A program made the translations under genes and the position numbers. From NCBI GenBank assembly GCA_003209475.1, contig QCQY01000005.1, positions 1 through 64,000 on the forward strand: a DNA stretch of 64,000 bases, read 5' to 3'. Under the pieces are notes generated by a model that saw only the letters and a list, made by a program, of their open reading frames with translations, ran no database searches and had not been told where the DNA came from. How positions within the stretch are numbered: position 1 is the stretch's first letter; each line of letters begins with the position of its first letter. Below, piece after piece: positions 8,244 to 61,681 of this stretch. This DNA comes from Prochlorococcus sp. AG-459-B06 (GTDB taxonomy: Bacteria > Cyanobacteriota > Cyanobacteriia > PCC-6307 > Cyanobiaceae).

Positions 8244-8414
8244 TTAATTTTTTGAGTCTTTCAATTTCATTTCTTTTTGTGTTTTCCTGATTCTTTCTTC
8301 AAAGAGGGATCTTCTGTATGGAGTAACTTCTCCACTTTTAGTAGCCAAAAGTTGAGCTTCATATAGCCTATTGACTCTTTTGATTTTTTCTCTTATTTGT
8401 AAGAGGTTATTCAT
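8244..8414 (-). CDS. 56 aa peptide downstream of a predicted glutamine-II riboswitch
   Basis: MNNLLQIREKIKRVNRLYEAQLLATKSGEVTPYRRSLFEERIRKTQKEMKLKDSKN*. Confidence 0.7.
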   Translation of the reverse strand: MNNLLQIREKIKRVNRLYEAQLLATKSGEVTPYRRSLFEERIRKTQKEMKLKDSKN

Positions 8415-8429: not shown

Positions 8430-8489
8430 ATGAGAATCCCGTTCCCTATTCCCATTTCATGCGTCCAGAGATATAAACTTGGATGAACG
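8430..8489 (-). promoter_or_regulatory. Predicted glutamine-II (downstream-peptide) riboswitch
   Basis: Minus strand CGTTCATC…TGGA CGCAT GAA ATGGGAAT AGGGAACGGG ATTCTCAT. P1 CGTTC/GAACG; crossing pseudoknot ATGGGAAT/ATTCTCAT; shares CGTTCATC, CGCAT and GGAACGGG with the copy at 28394. Confidence 0.78.
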
Positions 8490-8603
8490 TTAGTGAACAA
8501 TAACATCTTTAGAAAAATTTCGCGAGAGTAATTTTACTAAATTTTTCTCAAAAAAATAAATATTAAAAAAGACCTTATAAATAAGGTTTTACTATTTCCT
8601 AAA

Positions 8604-22027: not shown

Positions 22028-22489
22028 TTGGTTAACTGTCAATCAAATCATTATTTTAATTTCGAGGATGATTTTATTAAAGACTTAAGATGCATTCCTT
22101 TATGTGTAAGAAGGAAACTTGATTTAATTGGAATAAAATTAAAACTTACTCATTGGCAAGATTTTAATTTAATTGAAAAAAATAAAATAGTAGATTGGCC
22201 AGATTCAAAAAACGATCTCATTGATTTAAAAACTTTTTTAAAAGAAATTACATCTAATTCAAAATATGGAGAAGCAAAAGAAATAGAAATTTCAATTAAT
22301 CAACCTTGGCAAAATAAAAATAAAGTTCCTGACCAAGTTTTAAAATCGGCACTAGTAAGGGGAATTAATATTTCAGTTGAAAAATGGAGAAATTTAAACG
22401 AATTAGATAGATTTGCTTTTTGCAAATTAGTTAGACCAAGTCATGAACACAACAATTTGGATAGAGCATTTGATGAGATTCTGAAATGA
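22028..22489 (+). CDS. narM: Nitrate-reductase-associated protein NarM
   Basis: CIPLCVRRKLDLIGIKLKLTHWQDF; adjacent to narB. Confidence 0.85.
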   Translation: MVNCQSNHYFNFEDDFIKDLRCIPLCVRRKLDLIGIKLKLTHWQDFNLIEKNKIVDWPDSKNDLIDLKTFLKEITSNSKYGEAKEIEISINQPWQNKNKVPDQVLKSALVRGINISVEKWRNLNELDRFAFCKLVRPSHEHNNLDRAFDEILK

Positions 22490-24649: not shown

Positions 24650-26233
24650 TTAAACGTAATTTTCAGCTTTTTCCCCTTCATAAGCATCCGCGAATGATCC
24701 TTGAGGCTCCTTTAAAAAGAAATAACAGAAGAATCCAACTATTAATCCTGCTATACCTAAAACTTGGAAGAACGCACTATTTGAAGCAGCAATTATTTCT
24801 GGAGAAGGATCTTTACCTCCACCCATCCATAAAGGTAAGAGGCTATAAATATTTAGATAAGTTACCGCTCCAACATTTCCATAAGCCCCAACCAATCCAG
24901 CTATTTGTCCTGTTACTCTTTTTTTAACTAAGGGAACTAAAGCAAAAGTTGAGCCTTCTCCTGATTGAACAAAAAATGAACAAAGCATAGTTAAAAATAC
25001 AGCCATAAGAATTCCGGCTGATCCAGTAAAAGTTCCAGGTTTTATTAAAGACATCAATAGATATCCAAATCCTAATCCCATAGTTAGGAATCCCATTGTA
25101 TTTTTTCTATTGCCTGTTCTGTCAGATATCAATCCTCCCGCAGGTCTAGCTATTAAATTCACAAATGCATAACATGATGCAAGAATTCCGGCAACAGCTT
25201 TAGGTAAATCAAATGTAAATTCAAAGAAACTAGGAAGCATAGAAACTACTGCCAATTCTGATCCAAAATTTACAATGTAAGTTAATTCCAAAATAGCTAC
25301 TTGTTTGAATTCATATTTATCTTCTTTAGGATAAATTTTAGTTCCATTTAATAATTCAATATTCGTTCTTACAATTCCCCAAGTTTGGAAAATAAACCAA
25401 GCTAAAACTGCGAGTAAGGCTATTGGATAAGTGGATGAAGTAAGGAAACCTACTTTTTGAAGTCTCCAACATAGGACTGAAAGAATTGCTGCGAATGGAA
25501 CATTCATTCCAATTAAACCCCAGAAATCTCTTATACTGGTTACTTCTAAACCAGCTGTTTTTGCAGGCCTTTGATAAGGTTTTCCTGGAGGTGTATCAGT
25601 TACACTAAAGAAATAGATAATTCCATAAACGAAAGAAATAATCCCTGTAAGAGCAATAGCCCCCCTCCAGTTAAGTACAGCTCCAGTTGGCAACTCAAAT
25701 CCTCCTGAAAAAGACAAGAAGCCAGCTACGGCAACAAGAGAAAGAGCAGAAAAAGCAGATCCAAAATTTCCCCATCCTCCATATATTCCTTCAGCCAAAC
25801 CAATTTCTTTGGGAGGGAACCACTCAGATACCATTCTTATTCCGATAACAAAACCTGCGCCTACTATTGATAAAAGCAATCTCGCAATAACTAGTTGATT
25901 GAAGTCTTGCGCACTAGCAAATAATAAACATGGGACTACAGAAAATATCAAGATTGTTGAATAAGTTTTTCTTGGGCCAAATTTATCCAATAACATTCCA
26001 ATCAAAACCCTTGCTGGAATAGTTAAAGCAACATTACATATTGCTACTGTCCTAATTTGAGCAACAGATAAACCTAAATCAGCTTTAACAGTAGTTGCAA
26101 GAGGTGCGAGGTTGAACCAGACAACAAAAGTAAGGAAAAAAGCAAACCAGGTGAGGTGAAGAGTTCTGTATCTGCCATTTAAAGACCAAACATCACTTAA
26201 CATAAAAATTTTCTTCAGATTAATTTTTAGCAA
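24650..26233 (-). CDS. nrtP: Nitrate/nitrite MFS transporter (NrtP/NapA type)
   Basis: MFS NNP signature GNFGSAFSALSL; linkage to narB. Confidence 0.95.
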   Translation of the reverse strand: MLKINLKKIFMLSDVWSLNGRYRTLHLTWFAFFLTFVVWFNLAPLATTVKADLGLSVAQIRTVAICNVALTIPARVLIGMLLDKFGPRKTYSTILIFSVVPCLLFASAQDFNQLVIARLLLSIVGAGFVIGIRMVSEWFPPKEIGLAEGIYGGWGNFGSAFSALSLVAVAGFLSFSGGFELPTGAVLNWRGAIALTGIISFVYGIIYFFSVTDTPPGKPYQRPAKTAGLEVTSIRDFWGLIGMNVPFAAILSVLCWRLQKVGFLTSSTYPIALLAVLAWFIFQTWGIVRTNIELLNGTKIYPKEDKYEFKQVAILELTYIVNFGSELAVVSMLPSFFEFTFDLPKAVAGILASCYAFVNLIARPAGGLISDRTGNRKNTMGFLTMGLGFGYLLMSLIKPGTFTGSAGILMAVFLTMLCSFFVQSGEGSTFALVPLVKKRVTGQIAGLVGAYGNVGAVTYLNIYSLLPLWMGGGKDPSPEIIAASNSAFFQVLGIAGLIVGFFCYFFLKEPQGSFADAYEGEKAENYV

Positions 26234-26375
26234 TTTAGATTTCGTTCAATGCATCCATTTGTATTATTTAATACGAAATCTGGATTTTAAGAAATGCAAC
26301 TTTTTTTAAAGACTAGAATTAATAGCCAGCACTAATAAAATCAAAATTGGGGAAAAATAAGTAATTTATTTATTG

Positions 26376-28154: not shown

Positions 28155-28295
28155 ATGCGTTTAGCTATTTTACTTGGTTTTATTTTTGGAGTAACTCATG
28201 GAACTGTTGTTTCCCAAAGTTATTCTGCAAACTATCATGAAAATAATCAATTATTTTTTACTCAAAAAAATTCAAATATATTTTCTTCACTTTAA
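28155..28295 (+). CDS. 46 aa putative secreted small protein
   Basis: MRLAILLGFIFGVTHGTVVSQSYSANYHENNQLFFTQKNSNIFSSL*. Confidence 0.45.
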   Translation: MRLAILLGFIFGVTHGTVVSQSYSANYHENNQLFFTQKNSNIFSSL

Positions 28296-28326: not shown

Positions 28327-28368
28327 GTATTGCCATTAACATCTTGTAAATTAAATTGTCATTATAGT
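28327..28368 (+). promoter_or_regulatory. Putative NtcA-activated promoter (GTA-N8-AAC, 22 nt, TATAGT)
   Basis: GTATTGCCATTAAC at 28327-28340; TATAGT (-10) at 28363-28368; spacing exactly 22 nt. Confidence 0.55.
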
Positions 28369-28393
28369 TAAAATGTAGCGTAGACTACATAAA

Positions 28394-28452
28394 CGTTCAT
28401 CTCGTTCTACGAGCCGCATTAAGATTGAAGCCAAGGAACGGGGACTTCAATC
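28394..28452 (+). promoter_or_regulatory. Predicted glutamine-II (downstream-peptide) riboswitch
   Basis: P1 CGTTC (28394-28398)/GAACG (28436-28440); P2 CTCGT-TCT-ACGAG (28401-28413); crossing pseudoknot GATTGAAG (28423-28430)/CTTCAATC (28445-28452); ATG at 28457. Confidence 0.85.
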
Positions 28453-28456
28453 AAAA

Positions 28457-28786
28457 ATGAAATTTAGTCACATAACTATTATGTCCAGTAACGTATCTAC
28501 CTCAATAAGTAGTAATAATATTACTGCTATATTTGCAGGTTTTCTTGGAGCATTTATTGTTGGCTCTCTTGGAGTTCAACTTGTAAGAACTCAAAAGCCT
28601 TCTTTTCAATCTCAACCATTAAAAGTTCAACCAGTTCTAGCTCATCAATCAACTTTATGGGCAGCTTTAGGAGCACAAGATACTCCTATTGTTAAAAATA
28701 AAGTTTCTAATACTAAAACAACAGGAGTAGTCCCTGTTATAAGTTCTGAAGCAACTCTTTGGGCTCCACTAGGTTCAGGTAATTAG
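28457..28786 (+). CDS. 109 aa riboswitch-controlled protein with one TM segment and duplicated TLWAxLG motif
   Basis: …HQSTLWAALGAQD…SEATLWAPLGSGN*; starts 4 nt after the riboswitch pseudoknot. Confidence 0.8.
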   Translation: MKFSHITIMSSNVSTSISSNNITAIFAGFLGAFIVGSLGVQLVRTQKPSFQSQPLKVQPVLAHQSTLWAALGAQDTPIVKNKVSNTKTTGVVPVISSEATLWAPLGSGN

Positions 28787-28812
28787 TAAATTAGGTCTTT
28801 TAATAAACCGAG

Positions 28813-28833
28813 GGGGGCTAACCCCCTTTTTTT
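28813..28833 (+). terminator. Rho-independent terminator
   Basis: GGGGG-CTAA-CCCCC-TTTTTTT. Confidence 0.9.
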
Positions 28834-31017: not shown

Positions 31018-32319
31018 TTAAGAACCCAAAAGAGCTTTGCACTCAAGCATTTCTTTAGTAGCAGCTGATTTATTTGATCTCAATGAAATAATATCCGCTA
31101 AAAAGTTTGCATCATCTTTTACTCCACAAAAACGTCCTGAGCCCCATGTATAAAGCCAAGGCAAACCAAGAAAATACAACCCAGGAGATTGAGTAACGCC
31201 TCTTTCATGAACTGGGATACCAGTTCCGTCAAAAACTGAGATATCTACCCAACTAAAATCACTTTTATAACCTGTACACCAAATAACTACTGCTAAGTTT
31301 TTGCATTCAAGTTGAGTACCTTTGACATCTTCTTTTGGTTCCCAACATGGAGCATATATTTCTTCTTTAGGAGCATCTATATTATTTTTTGAAATCCACT
31401 CATCAATACTATTTCTTATTCTGCAGTAAACAGAATCTGCTCCAGCAAGATTTTTAGAAAGATCATTTGAAAATTGAATATTATCAATATTTAACTCTTT
31501 AAGTCGCCCATGAAGATTCATCCCTTCTTTTGCTCTTTTTCTAAGATCTATTTCTCTTCCGTTATCTCTTCCAGTCAAATAATGATTAGTTTTATTCCTT
31601 ACACTTTTAGGATCGTCGTGTTCACCAATAGGCATTGAATAATAACCCATTCTGTCAAGCCAATCTACAACATCTCTTCCTCTGTACCTTCTGGGAGATC
31701 TTGGAGCACTCCCAACACTTAGATGAACTTTTCTTTTTTCAAAAAAAAGATCTTCAGCTATTTGACAACCTGATTGACCACTGCCAACAACTAGGACAGA
31801 TCCTTCTGGTAATGAATTTGCATTTTTATATTCTCTCGCATCAATTTGCAGGATATTAGTTGGTAATCTCTCAGAAAGAGGATGTCGGTTCGGAACATGA
31901 TAAGCTCCAGTTGCTATAACAACTTGATCAGCTTCAAAATTTCCACGATTAGTTGAAATAAAAAACTTTTCATTTTTTTTAACTAAATGTTTTACTTCAA
32001 TCCCTTCAAGAATATCAGCCTTTACAAATTCAGAATATTTTTTTAAATACTTAACTATATTTTCTTTATCCATAAACCCATTAGGGTCTTTACCAGAATA
32101 TTGATAATCAGGAAGTGTGCATTGCCAATTTGGAGTAACAAGGCAGAAAGAATCCCAACGTTGTTCTTTCCAAGAAAACCCAACATAATTTTTTTCTAAG
32201 ATAAGAGGCTTTATCCCTTTTTTTTGTAGTGAATGTGCAATAGACAACCCTGCTTGTCCCGCGCCAATTATAATGACAGAACATTTAGCAGAAATTTGAT
32301 TTAAAAATTCTTCAGCCAT
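31018..32319 (-). CDS. FAD-dependent oxidoreductase / flavin monooxygenase of the Nit1C cluster
   Basis: VIIGAGQAGLSIAHSLQKKGI; VVGSGQSGCQIAEDL; divergent from the nitrilase operon. Confidence 0.9.
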   Translation of the reverse strand: MAEEFLNQISAKCSVIIIGAGQAGLSIAHSLQKKGIKPLILEKNYVGFSWKEQRWDSFCLVTPNWQCTLPDYQYSGKDPNGFMDKENIVKYLKKYSEFVKADILEGIEVKHLVKKNEKFFISTNRGNFEADQVVIATGAYHVPNRHPLSERLPTNILQIDAREYKNANSLPEGSVLVVGSGQSGCQIAEDLFFEKRKVHLSVGSAPRSPRRYRGRDVVDWLDRMGYYSMPIGEHDDPKSVRNKTNHYLTGRDNGREIDLRKRAKEGMNLHGRLKELNIDNIQFSNDLSKNLAGADSVYCRIRNSIDEWISKNNIDAPKEEIYAPCWEPKEDVKGTQLECKNLAVVIWCTGYKSDFSWVDISVFDGTGIPVHERGVTQSPGLYFLGLPWLYTWGSGRFCGVKDDANFLADIISLRSNKSAATKEMLECKALLGS

Positions 32320-32422
32320 CTTTTTATTTATTAGTAAAATTTTGTCATATTTATGAGATTTAATTTGTTATCAAACTCACCAAAAAAATTTTTTGCTCTG
32401 AAATCTTAAGTTAACTAATTTG

Positions 32423-32436
32423 GTGATATCGGTTAC
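32423..32436 (+). promoter_or_regulatory. NtcA-like box upstream of the Nit1C operon
   Basis: GTGATATCGGTTAC; one mismatch to GTAN8TAC; 50 nt before the ATG. Confidence 0.35.
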
Positions 32437-32486
32437 ATTCTTTTTGAAAATCAAGTCAGAAAATAATCAAAGTTTTAAAAAATTTC

Positions 32487-32969
32487 ATGCCATCCGTAAC
32501 TCGTCCCGCGAATCAGCCTGGAGAATTCTTAGTTGATTATGAAGAAAAAGTATTCCCAGATGTTAAAGCCGAACCAGGTGAGAAAGCCTTACTAACTTTT
32601 CATACTGTCGCTTTTGAGGGATCTATTGGTCTTGTTAATCTTTTGCAAGCTAGTCGTCTTATAAACAAGGGATTTGAAACTTCAATATTGCTATATGGTC
32701 CTGGAGTGACTTTAGGTCTACAAAGAGGCTTTCCAAAGCTTGGAGATGCAGCATTTGATGGTCATTTAAATTTTAATGCTCGCTTAGAAAAATTTATGGG
32801 TCAAGGCGGTAAAGTTTATGCCTGTCGATTTGCATTACAAGCTTTGTACGGACATGGAGAAGGAGCTCTTACTCCGGGGATAAAACCAATCAGTCCTTTA
32901 GATGTTCTCGATATCGTTTTAATGCATCGTAAAGAAGGGGCATTTATTTTAGATACTTGGACTCTGTAA
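32487..32969 (+). CDS. MSMEG_0572/Sll0783-family Nit1C protein
   Basis: Position immediately upstream of the nitrilase; [29 protein letters not shown]. Confidence 0.85.
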
Positions 32970-32987
32970 GACATAAGATCCAAGAAA

Positions 32988-33980
32988 ATGACTAAAACAT
33001 TTAAAGTGGCTGCTGCTCAAGTCAGACCTGTACTTTTTGACTTAAATGGCTCATTGAATAAAGTTCTTTTAAAGATTCAAGAGGCAGCTACAAAAGATGT
33101 AAAGTTGATAGTCTTTCCCGAAACTTTTCTTCCTTACTACCCATATTTTTCATTTGTAGAGCCGCCAGTTCTCATGGGTAAATCTCATATGAAGCTATAT
33201 GAGCAAGCAGTAGAAATCCCTGGTCCAGTTACAGACATAGTTGGGAAATCAGCTAAAAAAAATAAAATCCAAGTTCTTTTAGGAGTTAATGAACTTGATG
33301 GTGGAAGTTTGTACAATACTCAAATTCTTTTCAACGAAAAAGGTGAAATTATTCTAAAAAGAAGAAAAATAACTCCTACGTTTCACGAAAGAATGATTTG
33401 GGGTCAAGGTGATGGTTCTGGCTTAGAAGTTGTAGATACTCAACTTGGCAAGATAGGATCTTTGGCTTGTTGGGAGCACTATAACCCTTTAGCTAGGTTT
33501 GCTCTTATGGCTAAAGGGGAACAAATACATTGTGCTCAATTTCCTGGTTCATTGGTTGGTCCAATATTTACCGAGCAAACTGCAGTTACAATGAGACATC
33601 ACGCTTTAGAGGCTGGCTGTTTTGTGATTTGCTCAACAGGATGGTTAGATCCAGAAGATTATGAAAAGATAACGTCCGAAACCAATCTTCACAAAGCATT
33701 TCAGGGAGGATGTCATACAGCAATTATCAGTCCAGAAGGCAAATATTTAGCAGGACCACTTGATGAAGGAGAAGGATTAGTAATAGCAGAAATTAATTTA
33801 TCACTTATTACTAAAAGGAAAAGAATGATGGATAGTGTTGGTCACTACAGTCGTCCAGATCTTCTTTCTCTAAAACTAAATACATCCCCTAACAAAGTAT
33901 TTGAGATGACAAATAAGAAAAATATCATACCAAAAGATCTAACTGCAAAAGACTATTTAGAGGAAATCAATCATGTCTGA
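32988..33980 (+). CDS. Nitrilase (Nit1 family)
   Basis: VFPETFLPYYPYF; KRRKITPTFHERMIWGQGDG; GSLACWEHYNPL (Glu-Lys-Cys triad). Confidence 0.96.
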   Translation: MTKTFKVAAAQVRPVLFDLNGSLNKVLLKIQEAATKDVKLIVFPETFLPYYPYFSFVEPPVLMGKSHMKLYEQAVEIPGPVTDIVGKSAKKNKIQVLLGVNELDGGSLYNTQILFNEKGEIILKRRKITPTFHERMIWGQGDGSGLEVVDTQLGKIGSLACWEHYNPLARFALMAKGEQIHCAQFPGSLVGPIFTEQTAVTMRHHALEAGCFVICSTGWLDPEDYEKITSETNLHKAFQGGCHTAIISPEGKYLAGPLDEGEGLVIAEINLSLITKRKRMMDSVGHYSRPDLLSLKLNTSPNKVFEMTNKKNIIPKDLTAKDYLEEINHV

Positions 33981-35061
33981 AATAGGTAAAATTATTACTG
34001 AGTTGCAAGTTAATGGGATAAGTTCCACTCCTAAAAAGGGCAACAGGGGTAGGAAAGGAGGAGCTGGTCCATCTGATCATAGAGCTTTAACAATTGAAGG
34101 GAAAACTGTGATGGTACCCGTTTATAATCACGTATCTAAGAAATCTAATTATCAACTTTCAGAGAAGCCTGACGGACAATTTATTCTCCAAAATAATCAA
34201 GATTCAAACATTAAGGAATTATCTACCACAAAAGAACCAAATTTTTATTCTTTAAAAACAAAAGACGGTATATCTTATAAATCGATTGCTCTTCTTCATA
34301 GCAAGGATGTATTAGCTACAACTATTCTTCAAAAATGTATTCGTTTCAGAAATAGAGAAGAATCTTGCCAGTTTTGTGCAATAGAGCAATCTTTGGAGAA
34401 CGCACAAACCATTGTAAGAAAAACTCCAGATCAAATAGCTGAAGTTGCAGAAGCAGCTGTAAGACTTGATGGAATAAAGCAATTAGTAATGACAACAGGG
34501 ACCCCTAACAGTAGCGATAGGGGAGCGAGAATAATGGCAGAAGCAGCTAAGGCTGTTAAGGCTAAAGTTGATATTCCAATCCAAGGTCAATGCGAACCGC
34601 CTGATGATCCTATTTGGTTTAAAAAAATGAAAGACTCAGGTGTAGATAGCTTAGGCATGCATTTAGAGGTTGTAGAGGAGGAGATAAGAAAAAAAATTCT
34701 TCCTGGCAAATCTGAAATTTCTCTTGAAAGATACTATAAATCCTTCGAAGAAAGTGTCGCAATATTTGGAAGAGGAGAAGTTTCTACATATTTATTAGCC
34801 GGATTAGGTGATAGCAAAGAATCTCTAATAAATTGCAGTAAAAAATTGATATCTATAGGAGTTTATCCTTTTATAGTTCCATTTGTGCCAATAGCAGGAA
34901 CTCCTCTAGAACATCATCCCTCCCCAAGTACTGATTTCATGATTGATATTTATCAATCAGTCTCGCATTTACTAAATGAAGGCAACATAAAATCTGATGA
35001 AATGTCAGCTGGTTGTGCCAAATGCGGAGCCTGCTCAGCTTTATCCCTATTTGAGAGTTAA
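33973..35061 (+). CDS. Nit1C radical SAM protein (MSMEG_0568 type)
   Basis: RFRNREESCQFCAIEQS; TTGTPNSSDRGA; C-terminal CAKCGACS. Confidence 0.92.
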   Translation: MSEIGKIITELQVNGISSTPKKGNRGRKGGAGPSDHRALTIEGKTVMVPVYNHVSKKSNYQLSEKPDGQFILQNNQDSNIKELSTTKEPNFYSLKTKDGISYKSIALLHSKDVLATTILQKCIRFRNREESCQFCAIEQSLENAQTIVRKTPDQIAEVAEAAVRLDGIKQLVMTTGTPNSSDRGARIMAEAAKAVKAKVDIPIQGQCEPPDDPIWFKKMKDSGVDSLGMHLEVVEEEIRKKILPGKSEISLERYYKSFEESVAIFGRGEVSTYLLAGLGDSKESLINCSKKLISIGVYPFIVPFVPIAGTPLEHHPSPSTDFMIDIYQSVSHLLNEGNIKSDEMSAGCAKCGACSALSLFES

Positions 35062-35067
35062 AAAATT

Positions 35068-35706
35068 ATGTTTTTTATTGACCCCTCAAGTCAGGATATA
35101 GGCAGAAGCTTTAGCTCTGCACCTTTCTATTTCACACCCTCTGTAAGATCAGGTATTGGGATTGAAGAAGAAGATTTCATGCTATCTCCAAATTCAAATT
35201 CTGAAAACTTTTCATTTCATTTGCTTGAAGAGAATTCTCCCCTTATCAAAGACTACTGGGGATTACGAAAGAGAATATTTTGCGAAGAACAAAATATTTT
35301 TGCTGAATCAGATATTGATGAAATTGATCAAGTTGCGTACCCAATAGTTTCTTTGAATTATGGATATGGCACAAAAGAGAGAGTCGTTGGCGTAGTGAGA
35401 ATTTACGAAACAGAAAAAAGACAATGGTACGGCGGGAGACTAGGTGTAGATTCCACTTTTCGCAAATTCAACCAAATAGGAAAAGGATTGATCTGGAAAG
35501 CAGTAACTACAGCAAATGGATGGGGATGCGATCAATTTTTAGCAACCGTTCAGATACAAAATGTAAGATTTTTTAGACGACTTAAATGGAATTCAATTAA
35601 ACAAATTGAAATCAAAGGAATAAAACATCACTTAATGGAGGCTGACTTAAATTATTACAAGCCTTCAAAATTAAGCAGACCAGGCTCATATTTAGTGGGA
35701 AAGTGA
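35068..35706 (+). CDS. Nit1C GNAT N-acetyltransferase (MSMEG_0567 N-domain type)
   Basis: LRKRIFCEEQNIF; GVVRIYETEKRQWYGGRLGVD. Confidence 0.9.
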   Translation: MFFIDPSSQDIGRSFSSAPFYFTPSVRSGIGIEEEDFMLSPNSNSENFSFHLLEENSPLIKDYWGLRKRIFCEEQNIFAESDIDEIDQVAYPIVSLNYGYGTKERVVGVVRIYETEKRQWYGGRLGVDSTFRKFNQIGKGLIWKAVTTANGWGCDQFLATVQIQNVRFFRRLKWNSIKQIEIKGIKHHLMEADLNYYKPSKLSRPGSYLVGK

Positions 35707-35715
35707 CCACAAAAA

Positions 35716-36696
35716 ATGTTAGATAAACTTATCAAAAAATTGCAGACACATAGTGGTATTGAATCTAAAAAAGATATTCAAAGTGCTGCAAAAACTTTCT
35801 CACATAGCCCGTTCAGTGAACTTGGCAAATCTGCAATGCTTGGAGATGATGCTGCAGTAATCCCTAAACAATCAGGTTTGTTATTAATGGCGAGTGAAGG
35901 AATTAGCCCAAGCTTAGTAGAAAAAGAGCCTTGGTTCGCAGGCTGGAGCAGTGTATTGGTAAATATCAGTGACATCGCTGCGATGGGCGGTAAACCTTTA
36001 GCTTTAGTTAACAGTATTTGGAGTGACATAAATGATTTAGAAAAACATAATCAAATTCTTTCTGGCATGAATTTTGCCTGTGAAAAATTTAATGTACCAA
36101 TGGTTGGTGGTCACTCAAATCAAAAAAGTCCTTATTCTGCTTTATCAGTATCAATTCTTGGATTGGTAGATGGTCCTATTCTTTCTTCAAGATTCGCAGA
36201 GTCTGAAGATGAATTATGGATAATAGCAAACAAAGATGGATGCTTTTTTAAAGATTATCCCTTTTGGGATGCGGCTACGAAAGCATCTGCAACTTTACTT
36301 AGAAAACATTTTTCTTTGATACCATTTCTTGCAAAAAAAAATATCATTCATGCAGCCAAAGACATAAGCATGGGCGGTATAACAGGTACTGCAGTTATGT
36401 TTGCTGAATCTTCTGGAAAAACAATTGTAATTGATCTTGAGAAAATTCAACGCCCTAAAGGAGTTAAAGAATTCGACTGGCTTACTTGTTTCCCCAGCTA
36501 TGGATTTCTTTGTGCTATTAAGCCATCTAAAGCTTATTTTTTAAAGGAAGCTTTAGGAGCATATGAAGAACTAATTTGCTGTCATGTCGGCAACTTTAAA
36601 AATGGGAATAGCAGTGTTTATATCAAAAACTCAAATGGAGCAAAATTGCTTTGGGAAGAAGATACTCCTCTCACTGGATTTAATAATGCAAATTAA
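35716..36696 (+). CDS. Nit1C AIR-synthase-related protein (Sll0787 type)
   Basis: GDDAAVIP; NISDIAAMGGKPLALVNS; DISMGGITGTAVMFAESS. Confidence 0.93.
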   Translation: MLDKLIKKLQTHSGIESKKDIQSAAKTFSHSPFSELGKSAMLGDDAAVIPKQSGLLLMASEGISPSLVEKEPWFAGWSSVLVNISDIAAMGGKPLALVNSIWSDINDLEKHNQILSGMNFACEKFNVPMVGGHSNQKSPYSALSVSILGLVDGPILSSRFAESEDELWIIANKDGCFFKDYPFWDAATKASATLLRKHFSLIPFLAKKNIIHAAKDISMGGITGTAVMFAESSGKTIVIDLEKIQRPKGVKEFDWLTCFPSYGFLCAIKPSKAYFLKEALGAYEELICCHVGNFKNGNSSVYIKNSNGAKLLWEEDTPLTGFNNAN

Positions 36697-38130: not shown

Positions 38131-38335
38131 TTTTAAATTGATCGTCATGAGTGTTTGTCAATAGGGATACTGTCAAGCACTTTTTTATTAGAAAAAATAT
38201 TTGAAAAAAAAAGAGATTGTTTCTTAGCTAATAACAATCTCTCAATTACCTAATTCTTACATGAAAAATTTCAAGTAAGTAAAAGACTTTAACTGATTTA
38301 TTTTTATAGTAAAAACGTAAAAATGCTTTTATTAT

Positions 38336-60315: not shown

Positions 60316-61681
60316 TAGTTTACTTAGAGCCCCTAACCAGAGTATTGAAGAAACTGGTTATGCTTGGTATGTAGGTAACGCCAGATTAATTAATTTATCT
60401 GGCCGTTTACTTGGAGCTCATATTGCACACACTGGTCTTATTGTTTTCTGGGCCGGTGCAATGATGTTATTCGAAGTAAGTCATTTCACATTCGATAAAC
60501 CGATGTGGGAACAAGGCTTAATTTGTATGCCTCATGTTGCAATGTTTGGATTTGGAATAGGTCCTGGAGGAGAAGTTACTGATGTGTACCCATTCTTTGT
60601 GGCTGGTGTGATGCATTTAATTTCTTCTGCAGTCTTAGGATTTGGCGGTATCTACCATTCCTTAGCAGGTCCAGAAAAACTTGAACAAGATTTTCCTTTC
60701 TTTTCAACAGATTGGAGAGATAAGAATCAAATGACTAATATATTGGGTTATCACTTAATAGTATTAGGCGTTGGTGCATTATTTTTCGTTTTTGATTGGA
60801 TGTTCATTGGAGGCGCTTATGATACATGGGCACCTGGTGGTGGAGAAGTTAGGTTAGTTAGTCCTACATTAGATCCAAGAGTAATACTTGGTTACCTATT
60901 TAGATCTCCTTGGGGGGGCGCTGGTTCAATAATCGGTGTTAACTCAATAGAAGACATAGTTGGTGGTCACGTATATGTTGGAATTACTGCGATAATTGGT
61001 GGTCTTTTCCATATCTTTACCAAACCTTTTGGATGGGCAAGAAGAGCATTCATCTGGAATGGTGAAGGACTATTAAGTTACGCTCTTGGTGGAATTTGTG
61101 TAGCAAGTTTTATTGCTTCAACATTCATCTGGTTTAACAACACTGCTTACCCTTCAGAATTTTATGGCCCAACAAATGCTGAAGCTTCACAGGCTCAAAG
61201 CTTTACTTTCCTAGTGAGAGATCAAAGAATTGGAGCTAACGTAGGTTCAACAATGGGACCAACTGGTTTAGGTAAGTATCTCATGAGATCTCCTACTGGT
61301 GAAATTATATTTGGTGGTGAAACAATGAGATTTTGGGACTTCAGAGGTCCATGGTTAGAGCCTTTAAGAGGACCTAACGGATTAAGCCTTGAGAAAATCC
61401 AAAATGATATTCAGCCTTGGCAGGTTAGAAGAGCCGCTGAATATATGACTCATGCTCCTAACGCTTCTATCAACTCTGTTGGTGGTATCATTACAGAGCC
61501 TAATGCTGTTAACTTCGTTAATTTAAGACAATGGTTAGCTGCAGCTCAATTCTTCCTAGGATGGTTTACATTCATTGGTCACCTTTGGCATGCTGGACGT
61601 GCTAGAGCAGCCGCTGCTGGTTTCGAAAAAGGAATCGACAGAAAGAGTGAGCCAGCTCTTGAAATGCCTGATTTAGATTAA
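60299..61681 (+). CDS. psbC: Photosystem II CP43 protein
   Basis: GTG start at 60299 overlapping psbD by 17 nt: [44 protein letters not shown]. Confidence 0.98.

Follow-up and report, generated by a model that had tools for sequence, protein, structure and literature searches.

A Glutamine-II riboswitch at the end of the Prochlorococcus nitrate cluster precedes a small, predicted membrane protein associated with the NapA/NrtP permease

A leader RNA with the features of a glutamine sensor follows the nitrate assimilation genes of Prochlorococcus sp. AG-459-B06, which raises the questions of what it controls, in which direction, and what the controlled protein has to do with nitrate. We examined the locus in a 64,000-nt stretch of contig QCQY01000005.1 (hereafter, the window), whose source genome is a 1.18-Mb draft that is 76 per cent complete. 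Judged by genes and RNAs, it belongs to a high-light (HL) Prochlorococcus. The nitrate/nitrite assimilation cluster extends from nirA (16572) to moaA (28079). On the 3' side of moaA there follow, in order, a 46-aa open reading frame (ORF), a GC-richer leader, a 109-codon ORF (28457–28786, beginning approximately 380 nt from moaA; hereafter, P109), and a terminator-like hairpin. The clade labels HL and LLI used throughout are assignments deduced partly from gene order and the literature. The genes and ORFs of the locus that matter here are:

22028..22489, + strand: narM, nitrate reductase maturation protein, within the nitrate cluster (TIGR02664, 146.8 bits)
24650..26233, − strand: napA/nrtP, NarK-family MFS nitrate/nitrite permease (TIGR00886, 365.8 bits)
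28155..28295, + strand: smORF1, 46 aa (MRLAILLGFIFGVTHG...), with a hydrophobic N-terminus, conserved upstream of P109 across Cyanobiaceae
28457..28786, + strand: P109, 109 codons, with a transmembrane helix at residues 22–45 and W-motifs at residues 62–71 and 96–105 (from alignment and AlphaFold)
approximately 28812..28833, + strand: terminator-like hairpin of a G-run and a C-run, then a T-run, which closes the P109 unit and is seen after P109 in HL loci

The first-pass annotation of the window had read the leader as a glutamine-II (downstream-peptide) RNA, and covariance models bear this out. The Rfam Glutamine-II model (RF01704) matches at 64.9 bits, against a gathering threshold of 33 (E-value = 2.1e-13 over the window), and the glnA-type model of type-1 glutamine riboswitches (RF01739) reaches 20 bits where 35 are required. 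The helices and the pseudoknot topology are present where they had first been placed, although their published names differ: CGUUC/GAACG is the PK helix and CUCGU/ACGAG is P1, which the annotation had called P1 and P2, respectively.

28391..28450, + strand: Glutamine-II riboswitch aptamer (RF01704)
28394..28398, + strand: 5' strand of the PK helix, CGUUC, pairing with GAACG at 28436–28440
28401..28413, + strand: P1 hairpin, CUCGU-UCU-ACGAG (28401–28405 with 28409–28413), with compensated forms in other leaders
28423..28430, + strand: 5' strand of P2, GAUUGAAG, pairing with 28445–28452
28436..28440, + strand: 3' strand of the PK helix, GAACG, pairing with 28394–28398
28445..28452, + strand: 3' strand of P2, CUUCAAUC, ending 4 nt before the ATG at 28457

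Across 31 distinct leaders (those of P109 together with paralogues), compensatory changes occur in all three helices. Specifically, P1 takes the forms CTCGT/ACGAG, CTTGC/GCAAG, CTCGC/GCGAG, and CCTGC/GCAGG; P2 appears as GATTGAAG/CTTCAATC, CTTAAG/CTTAAG, and CTCAAG/CTTGAG; and the PK helix changes from CGTTC/GAACG to CGTCC/GGACG in a paralogous leader. Among 42 P109 leaders of HL Prochlorococcus, the aptamer is almost invariant and the sequence upstream of it is variable. Plain minimum free energy (MFE) folding by itself gave no clear signal for a riboswitch (z about −1.5). A pairing of the 5' end of the leader with the second start codon, seen in MFE folds, was considered as an expression platform and set aside, as it is broken and uncompensated in four diverged HL leaders. 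We conclude that the leader at 28391–28450 is a Glutamine-II riboswitch, which would bind glutamine, judging by its likeness to RNAs of this class that have been tested (PMC6698751, PMC6316151).

Riboswitches of this class are common in the clade: HL genomes carry from 1 to 7, with at least one in 88 of 88 genomes (all at least 90 per cent complete except the window's own), and the genome studied here has four. The first-pass annotation had passed over one of these within the window, as it had the NtcA-type site, the 46-aa ORF, and the wider P109 family described below.

8430..8492, − strand: second Glutamine-II riboswitch (47 bits), with another target, a 56-aa ORF (8244–8414, − strand)

Only one base separates this aptamer from the Prochlorococcus RS01 RNA whose crystal structure was solved, and RS01 thus probably controls members of the 56-aa ORF's family in nature. 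The ORF is without DUF4278, and an NtcA-type site is absent before its riboswitch.

Upstream of the P109 aptamer, comparison of leaders revealed a candidate promoter:

28363..28374, + strand: candidate −10 elements TATAGT and TAAAAT (TAN3T), just 5' of the NtcA-type site
28375..28388, + strand: putative NtcA-type site, GTAGCGTAGACTAC, palindromic, fitting the NtcA consensus GTA-N8-TAC

An NtcA-type site is found at −19/−18 from CGTTC in 52 of 52 distinct Glutamine-II leaders (25/25 of P109 and 27/27 of DUF4278 genes), and its eight inner bases vary (GCGTAGAC, GTGAAGAC, GTCATTAC, GCAACCGC, and others). The window as a whole contains 11 such sites, compared to 6.4 expected. An NtcA motif was noted previously at the DUF4278 gene PMM1846 (PMC6316151). 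In 50 of 59 distinct leaders, TAN3T occurs at most 14 nt 5' of the box, which says little on its own because AT-rich sequence makes chance TAN3T common; the activator layout, with TAN3T 20–24 nt 3' of the box, occurs in none of the 59. Such a layout is present at the napA promoter (GTATTAAATAATAC-N23-TAAATT, with the NtcA site at 26274–26261 on the − strand). In the related leader yfr6, transcription starts approximately 20 nt before the aptamer (PMC2864571), so the NtcA-type site would overlap the P109 transcription start. From this arrangement, we infer that NtcA would bind the putative site at P109 and act there as a repressor. Given the activator geometry at napA and none at P109, opposite control by NtcA is predicted, with napA activated and P109 repressed. 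The box could instead work as a short 5' RNA hairpin.

The ORF behind this leader had been proposed to be controlled by the riboswitch and to encode a possible membrane effector, and both proposals are supported, the latter by a single conserved transmembrane helix. In an alignment of 32 family members, a single hydrophobic helix is seen, in which F29, F33, L38, V40, and Q41 are invariant. The tail motif [AS]-[TAS]-[LM]-W-x-x-[LF] (A-T-L-W-x-x-L) is single in some members of the family and doubled in Prochlorococcus and many Synechococcus-type members. The AlphaFold model of P109, built with 32 homologues, has a helix at residues 22–45 and is otherwise mostly disordered (mean pLDDT of 58.5); a weak charge bias suggests that the tail lies on the cytoplasmic side. 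The W-motifs are the part under the strongest purifying selection, with pN/pS of 0.17–0.18 compared with 0.35 for the protein as a whole. These values replace an earlier dN/dS of 0.53, which was inflated by indel-bearing sequences. P109 has no relatives at cut-off in Pfam or NCBIfam (no Pfam family up to an E-value of 1), none among PDB structures, and none in the viral contigs searched. A match to CbtB (NCBIfam, E-value = 0.027) was set aside as membrane-helix resemblance. DUF4278 (PF14105, LTYRGxxY) does not match P109, whereas it does match the L001 peptide (33.1 bits). The neighboring smORF1 is probably a real, unannotated gene: its dN/dS is approximately 0.21 across 36 distinct alleles of HL Prochlorococcus, indicating purifying selection, and in Synechococcus it lies directly 5' of P109, where the pair looks like a bicistron.

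The tie to nitrate assimilation suggested by the position of P109 was borne out and turned out to be stronger than claimed, since within Cyanobiaceae P109 occurs only with NapA/NrtP. Among 301 Cyanobiaceae genomes, napA and narB are both present in all 82 with a clear P109, and P109 is found in none of the 80 that have narB and no napA. Conversely, the 97 genomes with napA comprise 82 with a clear and 6 with a weak P109 match (88 in total) and 9 with no hit, one of which has the locus cut by a contig end. Fisher's test within narB-positive genomes (P-value = 7e-36) ignores phylogeny and joint transfer, so we place more weight on the repetition of the pattern: in six mixed genera (g6, g10, g23, g30, g35, and g45), P109 is present in 16/16 genomes with napA and in 0/58 with narB and no napA. 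NrtC/D-type ABC subunits were detected in all 16 tested genomes that have narB and lack napA. Within the genus (151 genomes), full-length P109 is found in 32 genomes, narB in 33, and both in 30; narB occurs alone in three, each time at a contig end, and P109 alone in two, once at a contig end and once, in G093, as an orphan. P109 is kept in the cluster across three gene orders (HL Prochlorococcus, LLI Prochlorococcus, and Synechococcus), and in G050, where the cluster is duplicated, each copy has its P109. Class-level matches outside Cyanobiaceae that lie away from nar genes (e.g. G624, G592, and G609) were not counted as members of the family. P109 thus belongs to the NapA/NrtP nitrate-permease module, an assignment that is well supported; their co-distribution may come partly from joint transfer of adjacent genes.

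Two kinds of P109 sequence lie outside this pattern. The intact orphan in G093 (L039 6907–7233, − strand; an 80 per cent complete genome with narB absent from the assembly) is far from nar genes, and its leader has neither a Glutamine-II aptamer nor an NtcA-type site. Four narB-less Prochlorococcus genomes retain C-terminal fragments of P109 at the position normally taken by the nar cluster (L035 2942–3034, − strand; L036 3000–3092; L037 1753–1926, − strand; L038 2937–3135). The fragments are remnants of a lost nitrate cluster and mark its former site.

What, then, would glutamine do to P109? According to the review PMC6316151, glutamine binding to the type-2 riboswitch in a strain of Prochlorococcus turns expression up, and the authors of the crystal structure have argued that the ligand makes the ribosome-binding site available (PMC6698751). 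If the direction can be carried over from that other Prochlorococcus leader, the P109 leader is probably an ON switch with glutamine. We hypothesize, with a probability of roughly 0.5, that a glutamine-ON riboswitch and an NtcA-repressed promoter together cause P109 to be made when the cell is nitrogen replete, and that P109 binds NapA and restrains nitrate/nitrite import. At low nitrogen, NtcA with 2-oxoglutarate would activate napA and block P109, and scarce glutamine would keep the leader OFF. When nitrogen is plentiful, 2-oxoglutarate would be low and NtcA would leave its site; high glutamine would stabilize the pseudoknot and turn the leader ON, and the P109 made would enter the membrane, bind NapA, and hold back nitrate/nitrite import. 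In this scheme, control of P109 by glutamine is well supported, and we infer the sign of the effect of P109 on nitrate uptake. P109 in Prochlorococcus would answer to two signals of nitrogen status, glutamine and presumably also 2-oxoglutarate, which suggests a way to adjust nitrate use to the nitrogen already in the cell. More tentatively, P109 and smORF1 might together form an undescribed two-protein regulator of NapA/NrtP in marine picocyanobacteria, brought under glutamine control in Prochlorococcus through a captured cassette of NtcA-type site and Glutamine-II riboswitch. If so, glutamine would feed back on nitrate import itself, with no involvement of PII or NrtC.

The chief uncertainty concerns the role of P109, a brake on the permease or a partner that the permease needs. 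A homologue of 70 aa in another cyanobacterial family occupies the place X, between nirA and napA, of a nirA-X-napA-narB operon. It would be expressed along with the permease, so a subunit or an assembly factor fits this arrangement as well as a brake does; the operon favors a partner, whereas the control in Prochlorococcus favors a brake. Also counting against the proposed scheme are the lack of a riboswitch before Synechococcus P109, the G093 orphan with its different leader, and the nine napA-positive genomes in which P109 gave no hit. If P109 were a small subunit or assembly factor that NapA cannot do without, its amount only tuned by the riboswitch in Prochlorococcus, this would agree with the near one-to-one presence of P109 with napA and with the single transmembrane helix. 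A precedent exists in plants and algae, where NAR2/NRT3 is a small one-helix partner of the NRT2/NarK-type nitrate permease. P109 is likewise small, one-helix, and tied to a NarK-type permease, but the likeness is an analogy only: P109 is smaller, the two have no detectable sequence relation, and neither P109, which has no Pfam match at all, nor its Synechococcus homologue has a Pfam match resembling NAR2. Moreover, a needed subunit is expected to be made alongside its permease, whereas a glutamine-ON leader and an NtcA-type site placed for repression would lead to expression at opposite times, and 9 of the 97 napA-positive genomes are without P109. We therefore regard an obligatory subunit as unlikely, although it is the alternative that fares best.

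Considerably less probable is that P109 acts elsewhere, for example as a membrane anchor of NarB/NarM or a modulator of NirA there, and that its tie to NapA comes from genes that move together. The location of Synechococcus P109 next to narM, narB, and moaC would suit such a role, as would a weak homologue in genus g9 that is near nirA and away from napA. Yet P109 is wholly absent from the 80 narB-positive genomes with other transporters, and its link to napA persists as its position in the cluster shifts.

The first-pass annotation had favored the opposite direction of the switch, in which ligand binding hides the ribosome-binding region, because the aptamer ends 4 nt before the ATG at 28457. 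Glutamine would then turn P109 OFF, and P109 would be made in nitrogen starvation and aid nitrate assimilation. Only 4–6 nt separate the end of the aptamer from the first ATG, and a stable pseudoknot could block that start. However, for a Prochlorococcus strain this class of riboswitch is reported to turn expression ON (PMC6316151), glutamine is argued to free the ribosome-binding site (PMC6698751), the P109 promoter is without activator geometry, and the conserved start probably lies 24 nt downstream of the first ATG:

28481..28483, + strand: alternative P109 start codon (codon 9), aligning with the start in LLI Prochlorococcus and Synechococcus

Based on this alignment, 28481 appears to be a likelier start than 28457, and P109 may have 101 residues; the ORF does have the 109 codons originally reported, but the protein is possibly shorter. 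A start at 28481 leaves approximately 28 nt between the aptamer and the start codon. The hiding of the ribosome-binding region is thus probably wrong, and we consider a glutamine-OFF switch improbable.

The remaining question, how a glutamine riboswitch came to stand before P109, has a likely answer in the comparison of leaders. The riboswitch precedes P109 only in Prochlorococcus, in both HL and LLI, between smORF1 and P109; none was detected upstream of Synechococcus P109, either at the gathering threshold or at an E-value of 0.5. P109 leaders resemble DUF4278 leaders over their full length, including the NtcA-type site, and the nitrate cluster of LLI Prochlorococcus contains an additional DUF4278 gene (L120 8366–8547) between smORF1 and the P109 riboswitch. 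These two features suggest capture of a DUF4278 promoter–riboswitch cassette, which would have taken place before HL and LLI separated. That the leader is merely such a copied cassette of little regulatory importance, in front of a slowly decaying accessory gene, would be in keeping with its strong likeness to DUF4278 leaders, the remnants in narB-less genomes, and the orphan copy without a cassette, but it is very improbable given the nearly invariant aptamer between variable flanks in the 42 HL leaders, the purifying selection on P109, and the tracking of intact nar clusters by intact P109 copies.

The P109 leader RNA itself is typical of RF01704, matching the class in sequence, in the topology of the pseudoknot, and in every conserved block. 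The regulatory unit, by contrast, departs from those described. Described targets of type-2 riboswitches in sequenced genomes are DUF4278 proteins (PMC6316151), whereas the target here is a NapA-linked membrane protein. P109 therefore widens the range of targets beyond DUF4278 peptides. The closest counterpart in logic is gifB, which encodes a small inhibitor of glutamine synthetase, is repressed by NtcA, and is controlled by a glutamine riboswitch (PMC6316151). The P109 unit shares with gifB (IF17) of Synechocystis a predicted scheme of NtcA repression and glutamine activation of a small restrainer of nitrogen assimilation. The two differ in that gifB has a type-1 aptamer and acts on glutamine synthetase, whereas P109 has a type-2 aptamer, is a membrane protein, and is without the DUF4278 domain of IF17. 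For nitrate uptake itself, the known shut-off of the ABC nitrate transporter NrtABCD consists of PII and the regulatory domain of NrtC. P109 would meet the same need, namely stopping nitrate uptake when ammonium is present, but through a different protein and in genomes that use an unrelated MFS permease. For the shut-off of nitrate import through the MFS permease under ammonium, we found no explanation in the accessible literature, and the consulted portions of two genomic studies of the nitrate cluster (PMC6370341, PMC9430850) make no mention of P109 or of a riboswitch there.

Three further features of the window lie outside this locus. Adjoining the nitrate cluster, positions 31018–36696 hold flavin monooxygenase-, nitrilase-, radical-SAM-, acetyltransferase-, and AIR-synthase-like genes, a group that, judged by eye, looks like a nitrilase (Nit1) cluster. 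Two RNAs are encoded on the − strand: Yfr19 (38198–38280; RF02366, 90 bits) and IsrR, the antisense RNA of isiA (60713–60896; RF01419, 156.8 bits).
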